Assembly (NCBI RefSeq): GCF_003287285.1
Contig: NZ_QMIG01000001.1
Coordinates: forward strand, 62,001 to 126,000
Source: Phytoactinopolyspora halophila
GTDB taxonomy: Bacteria; Actinomycetota; Actinomycetes; Jiangellales; Jiangellaceae
Length of the DNA stretch: 64,000 nt
Reading direction: 5' to 3'
Shown here: piece after piece, positions 20,923-52,755 of the stretch
How positions within the stretch are numbered: the first letter of the stretch is position 1
Layout of the letters: every line of letters starts with the position of its first letter
The notes under the pieces: generated by a model
Told to the model about the DNA's origin: nothing
Database searches by the model: none
What the model saw: only the letters and a program-made list of their open reading frames with translations
Translations under genes and position numbers: made by a program

Positions 20923-21000
20923 CCCTGACTTCGATATCCAGACGTGCGGAAATGCCGTCGGATCGGCGAATAAGTGCATCTCTGGACATCGAAGTCAGGG
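20923..21000. repeat. 20-bp inverted repeat with 38-bp loop
   Basis: CCCTGACTTCGATATCCAGA (20923-20942) is matched in reverse complement by 20981-21000 with one mismatch (19 of 20). It lies between two genes transcribed in the same direction, with no T-run, so it could be a hairpin terminator/processing site for the DHFR-like gene, a small MITE-like insertion, or an operator for the VOC gene 84 bp downstream. Confidence 0.7.
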
Positions 21001-28180: not shown

Positions 28181-28720
28181 ATGGCCAAGGTTCTGTACTC
28201 GGCAACGATGTCGCTCGACGGCTTCATCGCCGGCCCCGGTGGGGACATGTCCTGGCTCGCCGAGCATTTGGAGCCCAATCCCGACATAGATGGGCTCGTC
28301 GCAGACATCGGCTCCCTGCTCGTCGGCAACCGCACCTTCGGCGGCGACGATCCGAACCGGGGGACGGACAAGGAAGGCGCCTTCGGCGGCGAATGGTCGG
28401 GACCAGCGTTCGTCCTCACACATCACCCTCCGGATACGCCCGTACCGGGGTTCACCTTCGTCAGCGACCTCCACAGCGGGCTGGCAGCCGCCAAGGACGC
28501 CGCCGGTGAGAAGTACGTCAACGTCCTGGGCGCCAATGTTGCCCGGCAGTGTCTCGAGGCAGGTGAACTCGACGAAATCCTCGTCATCATCGCTCCAGTT
28601 CTACTCGGTGACGGTGTGCGACTGTTCGAACACCCCGGCGGAACCAACGTCAAACTCGAGCGCGTCAGCGCAAGCCATGCGTCGCACGTCACCAACCTCT
28701 GGCTTCGTCCCGCACGATGA
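28181..28720 (+). CDS. Dihydrofolate reductase-like protein (RibD C-terminal/YyaP family), copy 2
   Basis: 179 residues. N terminus MAKVLYSATMSLDGFIAGPGGDMSW is typical of the family. LLVGNRTFGG is the cofactor-loop region, and the C-terminal signature appears as YVNVLGANVARQCLEAGELDEILVIIAPVLLGDGVRLFEHPG. No regulator is adjacent. The gene is 1.3 kb upstream of a third paralogue and 7.8 kb downstream of the first. The three differ enough in sequence to be separate acquisitions or old duplicates rather than a recent tandem copy. Confidence 0.88.
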   Translation: MAKVLYSATMSLDGFIAGPGGDMSWLAEHLEPNPDIDGLVADIGSLLVGNRTFGGDDPNRGTDKEGAFGGEWSGPAFVLTHHPPDTPVPGFTFVSDLHSGLAAAKDAAGEKYVNVLGANVARQCLEAGELDEILVIIAPVLLGDGVRLFEHPGGTNVKLERVSASHASHVTNLWLRPAR

Positions 28721-29001: not shown

Positions 29002-29080
29002 CCCACCTACCGCGCCGCCAGCCCACTGCCGTGCACGCCGCGCCCACCTACCGCGCCGCCAGCCCACATGCCGTGCACGA
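29002..29080. repeat. Two-copy tandem repeat, period 41 bp
   Basis: CCCACCTACCGCGCCGCC followed by AGCCCAC occurs at 29002 and again at 29043, each continuing into TGCCGTGCACG. Only a base or two differs between copies. It runs straight into the 22-nt units. Confidence 0.75.
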
Positions 29081-29151
29081 TCAGTCCACCTTCCATGCAC
29101 GCTGAAACCACGTCGATCCAGCACGAAAAGCGCTTTCCTACGTGAACTCAC
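29068..29151 (+). repeat. Repeat element copy A: two 22-nt units plus 40-nt palindrome-containing block
   Basis: Units 29068-29089 and 29090-29111 share the pattern TGCACG...CCAC, the second containing TGCACGCTGAAACCAC. They are followed by a 40-nt block (29112-29151) that starts GTCGAT and contains the palindrome AAAGCGCTTT. The block recurs at 30425-30464 in the same orientation with 37 of 40 identities. The two copies bracket the operator-controlled DHFR-like gene. Confidence 0.8.
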
Positions 29152-29229
29152 CGCGCACGGCACGTCGCCCGGGGACTTTGTCAGCTGCACTCACTCACAA
29201 GACATCCCCACGGACGGTCCTCCGCAGCC

Positions 29230-29294
29230 TTGACAGCGATCCCGCGCCCCACCATAATCAACCTATAAGTTAATCAACTTTATGGTTGATTATG
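29230..29294 (+). promoter_or_regulatory. Strong sigma70-type promoter overlapped by an inverted-repeat operator
   Basis: TTGACA (29230-29235), 17 bp, then CATAAT (29253-29258) is a near-consensus promoter, rare in this GC-rich DNA. The -10 is the left end of an 11-bp perfect inverted repeat, CATAATCAACC (29253-29263) and GGTTGATTATG (29284-29294), with a third related half-site TTAATCAAC in the centre. A repressor bound there would cover the -10 and transcription start. It drives DHFR-like copy 3 at 29461, about 195 bases downstream. In the leader a small open frame (29282-29464, 60 codons) begins inside the operator and ends overlapping that gene's start as ATGA. It may be chance or a coupled leader peptide. 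Confidence 0.75.
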
Positions 29295-29460
29295 CAGGGC
29301 TGAGCCCACGTTCGCTGCAACCACCAGCGACAAGACGGGCAAGAATTCCGGCGCTGTGCGGGCTTCCCCAAAGACACCCGCTCCAACAGCTCGCGAAGGC
29401 CATCGCCGGAGATTCCGAGCCGGCGACGATTCCGACTACAGAACCAAATGGAGGCAACAA

Positions 29461-30054
29461 ATGAGCAAGGTGATCGTAGACATCAGCATGTCCCTCGACG
29501 GATACATGAGCGCTTCCCAGGTGAGCCCTGACGAGCCCATGGGCGAGGATGGTCAGCGACTACACGCGTGGGCCTTCAACGGCAACGACGAGCGCAACTT
29601 CGAGGCACTCGCCAACGCGGTCGGCGGAGTCGGGGCGATCATCACCGGACGCCGCACTTACGAACTCTCCGTGCCGTGGTGGGGACTGGACGGGCCCTCC
29701 GGGTCGAGGCGGACTCCAGTGTTCGTACTCACTCGCAGTGTGCCCCAGAACGTTCCGGACGGAGGCGTCTACACCTTCGTAAACACTGGCATTGACCAAG
29801 CCTTGACAGAAGCTCGGACCGCCGCGGACACCGCTGACGTGTGCGTCATGGGCGGAGCCGATGTCATTCAACAGTTCATCCGGGCCGGTCTCGTCGACGA
29901 GCTGTCGATCCATATGGCGCCAGTGCTGCTGGGCGGCGGTATCCGGCTCTTCGAGAACCACGTCGCCAACCATGTCGGGTTGGAAAGCATCAGCACGATC
30001 ACCACGGCCGAAGCCACCCACCTGCGGTTCCGAGTACTCAACACACAGGCCTGA
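29461..30054 (+). CDS. Dihydrofolate reductase-like protein (RibD C-terminal/YyaP family), copy 3
   Basis: 197 residues. N terminus MSKVIVDISMSLDGYMSASQ, the cofactor motif GAIITGRRTYEL and the C-terminal DVCVMGGADVIQQFIRAGLVDELSIHMAPVLLGGGIRLFENH are full family signatures. Start ATG 29461 has GGAGGC 8 bases upstream. It is the only one of the three paralogues under an obvious strong, operator-controlled promoter, and it sits between direct copies of a repeat element. Likely a flavin- or NADPH-dependent reductase of unknown substrate, induced by a signal seen by a repressor not encoded next to it. Confidence 0.9.
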   Translation: MSKVIVDISMSLDGYMSASQVSPDEPMGEDGQRLHAWAFNGNDERNFEALANAVGGVGAIITGRRTYELSVPWWGLDGPSGSRRTPVFVLTRSVPQNVPDGGVYTFVNTGIDQALTEARTAADTADVCVMGGADVIQQFIRAGLVDELSIHMAPVLLGGGIRLFENHVANHVGLESISTITTAEATHLRFRVLNTQA

Positions 30055-30336
30055 CAGGCATCACCCCGCTGACGATCGCCGACTCGACACGTACGGCCGC
30101 CTGGAGCCGCCCCCTGCACGGCGACGGGCTGCCTTCCCATGGCTCCCTCACCACGGCTCCGACGACGACTGGCCCACCGAACCATGGAGCCGGCCGAGCA
30201 TCTCCTCTCCGCCGACGATCCTGTGGTGACCTCGTCGTTCGTCGATCCTGTCCATGGCTTCGTCGTCCGTGGAGCGGCTGCTCTGTCTGCGCACCTCTAT
30301 ACGTCTGGTGTTGCGCCTTGCACGTCGAAGGAGCAC
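30055..30336. other. Gene-poor spacer after DHFR-like copy 3
   Basis: No supported gene and no clear repeat in this stretch. Short open frames on both strands lack ribosome sites and recognisable domains. Confidence 0.55.
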
Positions 30337-30464
30337 CGACCATGCACGCTGAGTCCACGTCCCTTGCACGCTGAACCCACCTTCCGTGCACGCTGAAACC
30401 ACCTTCCGTGCACGCTGAAACCACGTCGATCGAGCACGAAAAGCGCTTTCCCACGTGGACTCAC
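30337..30464 (+). repeat. Repeat element copy B: four 22-nt tandem units plus 40-nt block
   Basis: Units at 30337, 30359, 30381 and 30403 are each exactly 22 nt. The last two are identical (CTTCCGTGCACGCTGAAACC then AC), the first two diverged. The 40-nt block with AAAGCGCTTT follows at 30425-30464. Same order and orientation as copy A at 29068-29151. Copy B ends 133 bp before the first CRISPR repeat. The units differ from the CRISPR repeat in length and sequence and have no spacers, so this is a separate element. Confidence 0.82.
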
Positions 30465-30597
30465 CGTGCAAGGCTCTCCGCCCACGATCATGGTCACCTC
30501 GCCTCAGGACCCAGGGCAGCCCTCACGGCGATCAGACACAGGTATCGACTGTCCTCACGCCGGTCTCGCAGCTCCGCTCACGCTTGGCCCCCACACC

Positions 30598-31976
30598 TCG
30601 AAATCCCCGCGTGCGCGGGGAGCATCCCTTCTCGGTGGTGATGTCGAGCGTGGCGCCGGGATCATCCCCGCGTGCGCGGGGAGCATCACAACCCGTACCC
30701 GAACCCCGGTCGCAATTCGGGATCATCCCCGCGTGCGCGGGGAGCATGAGGGATCGACCCAGCCAGATCGGCGGGCGACAGGATCACCCCCGCGTGCGCG
30801 GGGAGCATGCTATCATCCGCAGCTCCCAGAAGTCGCGTGAGGGATCACCCCCGCGTGCGCGGGGAGCACTCCGATACCGACAGCCTCCACCCCAAAAGCT
30901 GCGGATCACCCCCGCGTGCGCGGGGAGCATTGCTGGTACTCGTAATCGGGGTCCACGTCGAACGGATCACCCCGCGTGCGCGGGGAGCATCCCATTGCTC
31001 GCCGGATCTCGGCGATCGTCGGAGGATCACCCCCGCGTGCGCGGGGAGCATTCCCATCTCACACGTCTACCCCGAAAGGGGCGCGGATCACCCCCGCGTG
31101 CGCGGGGAGCATGGGTTGCGTTGCAGGATGCGCGCCAGATCCTGGGGATCACCCCCGCGTGCGCGGGGAGCATAGAAGGCTGTGAAAATGATTCTTTGAT
31201 AAGGACGGATCACCCCCGCGTGCGCGGGGAGCATGTAATCCACTCAACAAGTCGATGATTTGAGCAAGGATCACCCCCGCGTGCGCGGGGAGCATTGAAT
31301 GTGGTACGCATGGTGAATTCCCCTCTGGGGATCACCCCCGCGTGCGCGGGGAGCATGAAGTCCTTCTTTTTCACTGAGCAAGAATACAGGGATCACCCCC
31401 GCGTGCGCGGGGAGCATACTATTTGTCGTCTGCGTTTGTGTCGAGGTCTGGGATCACCCCCGCGTGCGCGGGGAGCATTGGATATCGCCGGGGTGGTCTA
31501 GGGCGCGTTCGGGATCACCCCCGCGTGCGCGGGGAGCATTCGGAGCACCAGCGGACCCTACCCCGGTTGTCTCATGGTCGATGGATCACCCCCGCGTGCG
31601 CGGGGAGCATTACGGGGCCTGGCGGGGGAACCAGGCTCACGTCGGATCACCCCCGCGTGCGCGGGGAGCATGTTCATCGTGAACCAGCGCTCCCGGCCCC
31701 TGCTGGATCACCCCCGCGTGCGCGGGGAGCATGGGTCAGTGTCAGTCTTGTTAAGAATGTAGAGGGGATCACCCCCGCGTGCGCGGGGAGCATCCGTGAC
31801 GGGTCGGATTCCGCATCCCGTAACGGGGATCACCCCCGCGTGCGCGGGGAGCATGGAAAACCCCGTACCTGAAAATCCATCGCAAGAGGATCACCCCCGC
31901 GTGCGCGGGGAGCATTCTTCCATCGCCTCAGCGATCCAAGCTACCAACGGATCACCCCCGCGTGCGCGGGGAGCAT
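30598..31976 (-). CRISPR. Orphan type I-E-like CRISPR array, 23 repeats, 22 spacers
   Basis: A 28-nt repeat (plus strand GGATC-AC-CCCCGCG-TG-CGCGGGG-AGCAT) recurs mostly every 61 bp; the stem CCCCGCG/CGCGGGG is the I-E hairpin. Starts: 30598, 30659, 30720, 30781, 30842, 30903, 30964, 31024, 31085, 31147, 31207, 31268, 31329, 31390, 31451, 31512, 31583, 31644, 31705, 31766, 31827, 31888, 31949. Repeat 1 is degenerate at its left end. Repeats 2-3 have ATCAT instead of ATCAC. Repeat 5 ends in C. The 30964 copy lacks one C. Spacers are 32-34 nt except 31540-31582, which is 43 nt. Decay at the left end and comparison with known actinobacterial repeats (CTCCCCGCG... sense) indicate transcription leftward, leader on the right. 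No cas gene occurs in the window. Confidence 0.97.
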
Positions 31977-50147: not shown

Positions 50148-52700
50148 ATGCCTGGTACCAATCTCACCCGAGACGAGGCGCGCACGCGCGCGGAACAGAT
50201 CACGACATCGTCGATGGAGTACACCGTCGAGCTGGACCTCACCGGCGACGACGCGACGTTCCGATCGACGACCACGCTTCGCTTCCAGGCGGAGAAGGGC
50301 TCGCGAACCTGGCTGGATCTCATCGCGCCTGCCGTGCGCGAGGTGAGTCACAACGGTACCGACCTGGATCCGGCCGAGGTGTTCGGCGAATCCCGGATCC
50401 AGCTGCCGCCGCTGGCCACGACCAACGAGGTCCGGGTGGTCGCCGACGCGGCCTACATGCGGACCGGTGAGGGCTTGCACCGTTTCGTCGACCCCGTGGA
50501 CGGCGAGACGTACCTGTACTCGCAATTCGAGGTCGCCGACGCGCGCCGCGTCTTCGCGTGCTTCGATCAACCGGATCTCAAGGGTACGTTCACATTCGTC
50601 ATCGACGCGCCCGCGCACTGGATCGTCGTCGCCAACTCGCCGGCCAGCATCTCCGACGTGCGCGAGGGCGTGCGGCGCTGGAGCTTCGAGACCACCCCGG
50701 CGCTCTCCCCCTATGTCACCGCGGTCGTCGCCGGCCCCTACCACGAGGAACGTGACGAGTACGCGAGGCACGACGCCACCGTGCCGTTGCGGCTGTTCTG
50801 CCGGAGGTCGCTCGCCGAGCACCTCGACGCCGGCGAGCTGTTCGACCTCACCAAGCGGGGCTTCGCCTTCTACGAGGACGTGTTCGGCCTGCCGTACCCG
50901 TTCGCCAAGTACGACCAGCTGTTCGTCCCCGAATTCAACGCCGGAGCCATGGAGAACGCCGGTGCGGTCACCTACCGGGACGATTACGTCTTCCGCAGCC
51001 GCGTCACCGACGCCTCCTACGAGCGACGCGCCGAGATCCTGCTGCACGAGATGGCGCACATGTGGTTCGGCGATCTGGTCACCATGCGATGGTGGGACGA
51101 TCTCTGGCTCAACGAGTCCTTCGCCACCTGGGCCAGCGCGCTCGCACAGAGCGAGGCAACCCGCTGGGACGAAGCGTGGACGACGTTCGCGGTGACCGAG
51201 AAACTGTGGGCACTGCGCCAGGACCAGTTGCCGTCGACCCACCCCATCGCCGCGGACATCCGTGATCTCGAAGACGTCGAAGTCAATTTCGACGGGATCA
51301 CCTACGCCAAGGGCGCCAGCGTGCTGAAACAACTCGTCGCCTGGGTGGGACGAGAAGCGTTCCTCGACGGCGTGCACTCGTACTTCACCTACCATGCCTG
51401 GGCGAACACCACGCTCGCCGACCTGTTCTCGCACCTGGAGGAGACCAGCGGCCGCGACCTCGCCACCTGGGAACGGCAGTGGCTGCAGACGGCCGGGGTG
51501 AACACGCTGCGGCCGATCACCGAGGTCGGCGCCGACGGCACCTACATGTCCGTCGTCATCGAGCAGTCCGCGGCCCCCGAGCATCCCACCGTGCGCTCGC
51601 ACCGCGCGGCCATCGGGCTCTACGACCTCGACGACGGCCAGCTCACCCGGCGCCGGCGGGTCGAGCTGGATGTCACGGGCGCGCGAACGGAGGTGGCCGA
51701 CCTCGTTGGCGAACGCCAGCCCGACTTGCTGCTCGTCAACGACGACGACCTCACGTTCGCCAAGATCCGGCTCGATGACCGTTCTCGCCGTACCGTGCTG
51801 ACGTCGATCTCCACGCTGCCGTCGCTTCCCCGGGCGCTGTGCTGGACCGCCGCCACCGACATGCTGCGCGACGCCGAACTGCCGACGCGGGAATTCGTCG
51901 AGCTCGTCCTGGGCGGAATCGAGCGGGAAACGTCGATTTCCGTCGTCCAGCACGTGCTGCACACCGCACGGATGGCCATCCACCTGTATGCCGACCCGAG
52001 CGAGCCGCTGCGGCTTGCCGCACGCTGGGCCACCGGCCTGCGGGAACTGGCGGGCGCCGCCGAACCCGGCAGCGATGCCCAGCTCGCGTTTACCCGCGCC
52101 TGGGTCTCCTCGGCTGGCAGCGAGCAGCACGTCGCCGAGATCCGTGCACTGCTCGATGGCTCCGACGTCCTTCCCGGCCTGATCGTCGACACCGATCTGC
52201 GCTGGCATCTCCTGCAGCGCCTCGCCGTGCTCGGCGCAGCCGACGACAAGGAGATCGATAGCGAGCTGGCGCGGGACAACACCTCCACCGGGGAACGACA
52301 CGCGGCGTACGCCCGCGCGGCACAGCCGACGGAGGAGGCCAAGGCCGACGCGTGGCGGAAAGCGGTGGAATCCGACGAGCTGCCCAACGCGTTGCTCACC
52401 GCCACCATCCAGGGCTTCGCCCAGCCGGAGCAGCGCGCCCTGCTCCGGCCGTATGTCAGCCAGTACCTCGAGGCGGTGCCCCGGGTATGGGCCGAGCGCA
52501 CCATCGACACGGCGCAGAAGATCGTCCAAGGGCTCTTCCCCCGAGTCCTCGCCGACGCCGAAACCGCGTCGGCCGTCCGGGAGTGGCTGGAAGGGGCCGA
52601 CATCCCCGACGCTGCGCGTCGGCTGGTGGCCGAAGGGCTCGCCGATCTTGATCGGGCGCTGCAAGCGCAGGCATGCGATCGCTCCGCGTCTCACAGCTGA
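50148..52700 (+). CDS. pepN: Aminopeptidase N (M1 zinc metallopeptidase)
   Basis: 850 residues from ATG 50148. The exopeptidase motif GAMEN is at 266-270, zinc motif HEMAH at 300-304 with the third ligand Glu323 in WLNESFA, and the transition-state Tyr region follows (YAKGASVLKQL). An N-terminal beta-saddle (YTVELDLTGDDATFRSTTTLRF) and a long helical ERAP1-like C-terminal domain complete the M1 architecture. It removes N-terminal residues from peptides, downstream of Clp. The last codons and stop lie inside a 67-nt palindrome that doubles as terminator. Confidence 0.97.
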   Translation: MPGTNLTRDEARTRAEQITTSSMEYTVELDLTGDDATFRSTTTLRFQAEKGSRTWLDLIAPAVREVSHNGTDLDPAEVFGESRIQLPPLATTNEVRVVADAAYMRTGEGLHRFVDPVDGETYLYSQFEVADARRVFACFDQPDLKGTFTFVIDAPAHWIVVANSPASISDVREGVRRWSFETTPALSPYVTAVVAGPYHEERDEYARHDATVPLRLFCRRSLAEHLDAGELFDLTKRGFAFYEDVFGLPYPFAKYDQLFVPEFNAGAMENAGAVTYRDDYVFRSRVTDASYERRAEILLHEMAHMWFGDLVTMRWWDDLWLNESFATWASALAQSEATRWDEAWTTFAVTEKLWALRQDQLPSTHPIAADIRDLEDVEVNFDGITYAKGASVLKQLVAWVGREAFLDGVHSYFTYHAWANTTLADLFSHLEETSGRDLATWERQWLQTAGVNTLRPITEVGADGTYMSVVIEQSAAPEHPTVRSHRAAIGLYDLDDGQLTRRRRVELDVTGARTEVADLVGERQPDLLLVNDDDLTFAKIRLDDRSRRTVLTSISTLPSLPRALCWTAATDMLRDAELPTREFVELVLGGIERETSISVVQHVLHTARMAIHLYADPSEPLRLAARWATGLRELAGAAEPGSDAQLAFTRAWVSSAGSEQHVAEIRALLDGSDVLPGLIVDTDLRWHLLQRLAVLGAADDKEIDSELARDNTSTGERHAAYARAAQPTEEAKADAWRKAVESDELPNALLTATIQGFAQPEQRALLRPYVSQYLEAVPRVWAERTIDTAQKIVQGLFPRVLADAETASAVREWLEGADIPDAARRLVAEGLADLDRALQAQACDRSASHS

Positions 52701-52755
52701 TCATCGGCAGTTTTCGACCCCTGGGGTCGAAAACTGCCGATGATCAGCTGTGAGA
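52689..52755. terminator. 67-nt perfect palindrome between pepN and the molybdopterin oxidoreductase gene
   Basis: Arm 52689-52721 (33 nt, beginning TCTCACAGCTGATCATCGG and ending TTTTCGACCCC) is exactly complementary to 52723-52755, with a single central base. The hairpin includes the last pepN codons and its TGA. It lies 20 bp from the convergent gene's stop, and so would act as a terminator in both directions. Stem length and perfection are extraordinary. Confidence 0.9.

Follow-up and report, generated by a model that had tools for sequence, protein, structure and literature searches.

We found that a 68-nt palindromic element, here termed S1, is dispersed through the intergenic DNA of an actinobacterial chromosome, and that two of its copies bracket a gene for a predicted nuclease. 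S1 is probably a non-autonomous member of a system that resembles REPIN/RAYT in its workings and is built on an unrelated nuclease. The family came to light through a pair of copies in the window, the stretch of 64,000 nt analysed here (G000:C12:62001-126000, from the 5.04 Mb genome G000).

Two copies of S1 in the window

The two copies, A and B, have the same orientation, lie 1,313 nt apart and together span positions 29068-30475 (Table 1). Their 68-nt cores are 91% identical, and the 40-nt block that an earlier note on this DNA had described as 37 of 40 identical between two direct copies does differ at just three positions. The 22-nt units of that note, two adjacent ones being identical, were likewise borne out: the period is exact in copy B (3.7 copies with 90% matches, counting the unit inside the core), where units 30378-30399 and 30400-30421 have the same sequence. 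Copy A has a degenerate second unit with a 41-nt duplication before it. AAAGCGCTTT occurs at just two sites in the 64,000-nt window, one per copy (expected 0.00), and the unit core, with at most three mismatches allowed, has seven matches in the window versus 0.6 expected, six of them at copies A and B. The anatomy proposed earlier, a palindrome plus 22-nt units, was correct for what it included and missed an inverted unit beyond AAAGCGCTTT. Each copy is thus a palindromic element with arms on either side of AAAGCGCTTT, and is composed of an arm (CCGTGCACGsTGAnTCCACGT), a box (GGAAAGCGCTTTCC), a spacer and an inverted arm; the tandem units of A and B are additional arms.

Table 1. S1 copies A and B and the features around them (window positions)
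Feature	Position	Strand	Evidence
Copy A, 68-nt S1 palindromic element	29093..29160	-	profile R1 match G000:C12:91093-91160, 66.9 bits; arm-AAAGCGCTTT box-spacer-arm on - strand
Degenerate tandem units / 41-nt duplication joined to copy A	29016..29092	+	
Copy B, 68-nt S1 palindromic element	30406..30473	-	profile R1 match G000:C12:92406-92473, 73 bits, the best in the genome
Three additional 22-nt arm units joined to copy B	30340..30405	+	tandem repeat, period 22
AAAGCGCTTT internal palindrome, copy A	29127..29136	.	
AAAGCGCTTT internal palindrome, copy B	30440..30449	.	
Probable bystander gene, RibD_C / DHFR-like, flanked by A and B	29461..30054	+	Pfam RibD_C E 1.9e-19
Another RibD_C gene, divergent and upstream of copy A; bystander	28181..28720	+	Pfam RibD_C E 1.3e-17
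24-nt inverted repeat, operator-like, upstream of RibD_C gene; outside the S1 family	29248..29299	.	inverted-repeat pair I1

The S1 family in the genome

A BLAST search of the G000 genome with the repeat returned 28 matches. Profile R1, a sequence-only model built from 22 copies (alignment A1), gave 62 matches with both strands of the palindrome counted, which correspond to 31 distinct loci, so the repeat is by no means confined to the site at which it was first noticed. The idea of the earlier note thus withstood one of the two conditions set there for its refutation, a lack of further copies in the genome. Nearly every copy is a gapless 68-nt element, the ends in G000 being CCGTGCACG, and some copies carry extra tandem arm units of 22 nt or, in one case, of 31 nt (L006, G000:C49:81979-82146). 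Arm matches above background are found in whole elements; the idea that single S1 arms form the borders of a longer transposon was rejected, as no clear isolated arms rise above the background, and so was a plasmid or phage origin, as no similar plasmid or phage DNA was found. The median identity between copies is 72%, and the 91% of A and B stands behind that of two tandem segmental duplicate pairs. Neighbouring copies less than 2 kb apart form four pairs, compared with 0.3-0.4 expected.

When the S1-type elements of four genomes are pooled, they prove to be intergenic, with gaps between convergent genes favoured (21/49, p 0.005) and divergent gaps disfavoured (6/49); this placement was made with a simple and crude GC3-based gene caller, and there are a few overlaps with the ends of reading frames or with short, uncertain frames. 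We also considered a role as structured RNA. Copy B alone folds well on both strands, but the arms of the family pair in 83% of cells, which is not above a control in which the 3' letters were exchanged at random between sequences; there were no compensatory changes between the arms, the covariation that is a feature of structured RNA, and no match to S1 in Rfam. The RNA-structure reading was thus rejected, since without covariation between the arms the S1 data do not require a folded hairpin. S1 looks like an element that acts as DNA rather than as RNA, and its conserved letters resemble protein-binding arms.

The nuclease bracketed by S1

The gene bracketed by two S1 copies (G000:C49:142946-143923) codes for a protein with an AbiEi-type winged helix followed by an EDxHD/DUF559-like nuclease domain, recognized in Pfam as AbiEi_4 and as a weak match to DUF559. 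The AlphaFold2 model computed from 39 sequences (alignment A3; pLDDT 92, pTM 0.89) was compared with known structures using Foldseek, which identified the AbiEi antitoxin 6y8q (E 1.6e-5), Rv2827c (1zel) and the catalytic domain of I-Bth0305I (3r3p: probability 0.99, TM on the target 0.63, E 0.04). The DUF559-type structure 3hrl was matched both by Foldseek and by the sequence profile (E 0.0036), and PADLOC assigned proteins of the family to its AbiEi model. The predicted structure supports a fold composed of AbiEi and an I-Bth0305I-like catalytic domain, and the residues E212, D244, E255 and K261, invariant in 39 proteins, are consistent with an active site of the PD-(D/E)XK/EDxHD type.

In G000 the nuclease gene is a neighbour of FtsK, and it occupies the same locus in four species of another genus (G004, G007, G010 and G012). 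The nucleases of these genomes are 60-70% identical, with a range of 58-70% among G000, G004, G010 and G012, compared with mostly 80-92% for the proteins of the neighbouring genes, and a palindrome pair flanks the gene in all five genomes. The two G000 copies at this locus score 27 and 56 bits with R1 and are not the most alike pair. Searches of the family genomes with R1 found S1 relatives only in G004, G010 and G012, all diverged, with the ends changed from CCGTGCACG to CATGGCACG, GCATGGTGCG and CTTGGTGCG, respectively, and the pair at the orthologous gene of G007 has CCTGGTGCG ends. Because of these changed ends, the exact architecture of S1 was not found in other species.

One site in G004 (L083) carries an S1-type element that is absent from all four congeners, a comparison in which the divergence is too great to show the junction. 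The orthologous intergenic site in G007:C15 (L181) contains a different perfect palindrome (CCCTTCCCATGATCATGAACAC...). Together with the observations above, the absence at this site in four relatives makes the repeat itself, which is dispersed, always whole, intergenic and linked to a nuclease gene, a well supported case of the "unrecognised mobile or recombination element" that the earlier note had suggested.

Palindrome pairs at nuclease genes across the class

All four paralogues of the nuclease that were scored in G000 have adjoining palindromes. Elsewhere, too, its paralogues and homologues lie between palindromes, whose sequences are different and depend on the species. Across the class, a flanking repeat pair (600-nt flanks, score at least 40) was found at 33 of 47 testable nuclease loci, versus about 3% in the controls. 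The family contributes 20/29 loci versus 24/812 mismatched flank pairs, a conservative control, as some mismatched pairs are syntenic homologues; the other families of the class contribute 13/18 versus 11/306. The flank comparison of L121, a truncated-contig artefact, was excluded from these counts. Direct (16) and inverted (17) pairs are about equally common among the 33 loci, while the remaining 14 of the 47 include a syntenic clade that keeps the conserved residues intact. An outer motif, TGAYCAYGT, points inward at 10/47 loci and outward at one. At one locus (L165, G050), and in contrast to S1, the differences between the flanking palindromes in one arm are matched by those in the other.

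In most cases checked, the flanking palindromes are dispersed in their own genome. The G014 type is represented at about 39 listed loci with 87-93% identity; no target-site duplication was found in 36 of its copies, and an inverted arrangement of their outer flanks was discarded, being equal to the shuffled control. Three of the ten class-wide types have few copies, and S3 is present in G000 at its own nuclease gene only. The window contains an imperfect palindrome with 25-nt arms (20923-21000) that bears a weak likeness to the S3 pair at the nuclease paralogue on G000:C41, and a perfect one with 33-nt arms and a 1-nt loop (52689-52755) that is single-copy in the genome. S4, at about 35 loci in G000, takes two forms: solo palindromes that are almost perfect, and inverted pairs of ends with unrelated DNA between them. 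The ends of a pair are 0.2-1.6 kb apart, and one pair encloses an M14 carboxypeptidase gene. A search for remnants of nuclease genes between S4 pairs gave no DNA match beyond the S4 ends themselves, and what matched at the translated level was weak and uninformative.

Comparison with known systems

REPs and REPINs are dispersed extragenic palindromes whose copies are non-autonomous, and their partners, the RAYTs, are Y1 tyrosine transposases (Pfam PF01797) flanked by inverted REPs (PMC2817692, PMC3116915, PMC8049555). RAYT genes are bracketed by REPs at a fixed locus, evolve fast and have coevolving extragenic palindromes (PMC2817692, PMC8049555). The S1-type system shares with them the dispersed extragenic palindromes, the non-autonomous copies and the bracketed partner gene, which resides at a fixed locus and diverges faster than its neighbours, the palindromes diverging with it. 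It differs in that the flanked genes match AbiEi_4 and DUF559 rather than Y1, that the pairs are direct or inverted, and that the elements measure about 55-100 nt; where REPs have a GTAG/CGTC foot and a size of 20-40 nt, S1 lacks the tag, is 68 nt long and ends in CCGTGCACG. As the enzyme is unrelated and the features of the element differ, we regard the system as one that works like REPIN/RAYT without being a member of it.

The likeness to type IV toxin-antitoxin systems (AbiEi/AbiEii) is limited to the N-terminal AbiEi fold: the proteins described here have an additional nuclease domain and palindrome pairs, and neither AbiEii (the nucleotidyltransferase) nor a transposase was found among the neighbour genes of several loci scanned, which encode FtsK, MiaB-type radical SAM, DUF7711, ABC, ROK, aconitase and mycothiol transferase proteins. 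MITEs of DDE insertion sequences are also short and dispersed with palindromic ends, and the solo and long forms of S4 resemble end-to-end derivatives, but no DDE transposase was found between the ends, and the G014 copies show no target duplication. In text searches largely confined to open-access papers, we found no literature that links AbiEi/DUF559 proteins with palindromic repeats.

A possible mechanism and its alternatives

We infer that the nuclease binds, cuts and copies the palindromes, as well as the direction of this copying. The protein would bind the arms, its specificity drifting along with the arm ends, and would nick or cut the palindrome; as the broken end is repaired or replicated, the element could then be copied, or tandem arm units added, at near or distant intergenic sites. 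A bolder version, which we entertain only tentatively, is that this is mobile DNA distributed across the class of actinomycetes: one AbiEi-EDxHD nuclease, whose chemistry is neither DDE nor HUH, would replicate palindromes within the genome and could also move the DNA between two ends, such as the window's DHFR-like gene or the M14 peptidase gene that S4 ends enclose.

It seems unlikely that the palindromes are instead regulatory or structural sites, i.e. operators of AbiEi-like winged helices or bidirectional terminators, which were spread by recombination and flank the nuclease gene through its self-regulation. AbiEi proteins are known autorepressors, the N-terminal domain is of this type, and convergent gene ends are favoured, as would be expected of terminators. 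Against such a role, the promoter-bearing divergent gaps are avoided, the pairs stand on both sides of the gene while dozens of copies lie far off, the ends differ in concert between species, and a repressor would need no conserved nuclease domain.

We likewise give little credence to a free-standing homing endonuclease, for which the palindromes would be targets or repair scars that the nuclease does not amplify. The predicted catalytic fold is close to that of I-Bth0305I, a Vsr-like EDxHD homing endonuclease, and the gene is intergenic between two target-like copies. In the proteins studied here, however, this domain is fused to an AbiEi winged helix, is encoded in actinobacterial chromosomes outside any intron or intein, and is linked to dispersed palindromes; the gene has kept one locus in two genera with no hopping, the palindromes alone disperse, and a homing event should have split one site instead of leaving two whole ones.

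The earlier view of A and B as the borders of a cassette with the DHFR-like gene found no support, and a composite mobile cassette is very doubtful: A and B are the closest S1 pair apart from tandem segmental duplicates, share their orientation, have a spacing similar to that of the pair at the nuclease locus and find a parallel in the S4 end pairs around unrelated DNA, but no second A-gene-B unit was seen, the RibD_C homologues of relatives are at unrelated positions, and local clustering is general among S1 elements. Local duplication of an S1 element is probably the simpler view of how the two copies came to flank the RibD_C gene, although the carriage of a gene between such paired ends may occur. 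The DHFR-like gene is tied to the S1 family by position alone, and no usable conserved synteny was found at the window locus among relatives. A CRISPR array (30601-31976, mostly with a 61-nt period) lies next to B, similar arrays being present in G000 contigs C7, C9, C34 and C37; no link between the array and S1 was found, and its vicinity to A and B, like that of the DHFR-like gene, is probably incidental.

Implications

The association between this nuclease and its palindromes looks like an unrecognised actinobacterial counterpart of the REP/RAYT mobile repeats. AbiEi/DUF559 proteins, which many actinobacteria have, match models of antitoxins and defence proteins; if they are in fact the engines of resident palindrome populations, many annotations and counts of defence systems would change. 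Actinobacteria would then gain a non-homologous counterpart of REPIN/RAYT, and with it a second independent case for the question of why bacteria keep replicating palindromes for so long. The cognate pairs of nucleases and palindromes, with their changing ends, would form a natural series for studies of DNA recognition.
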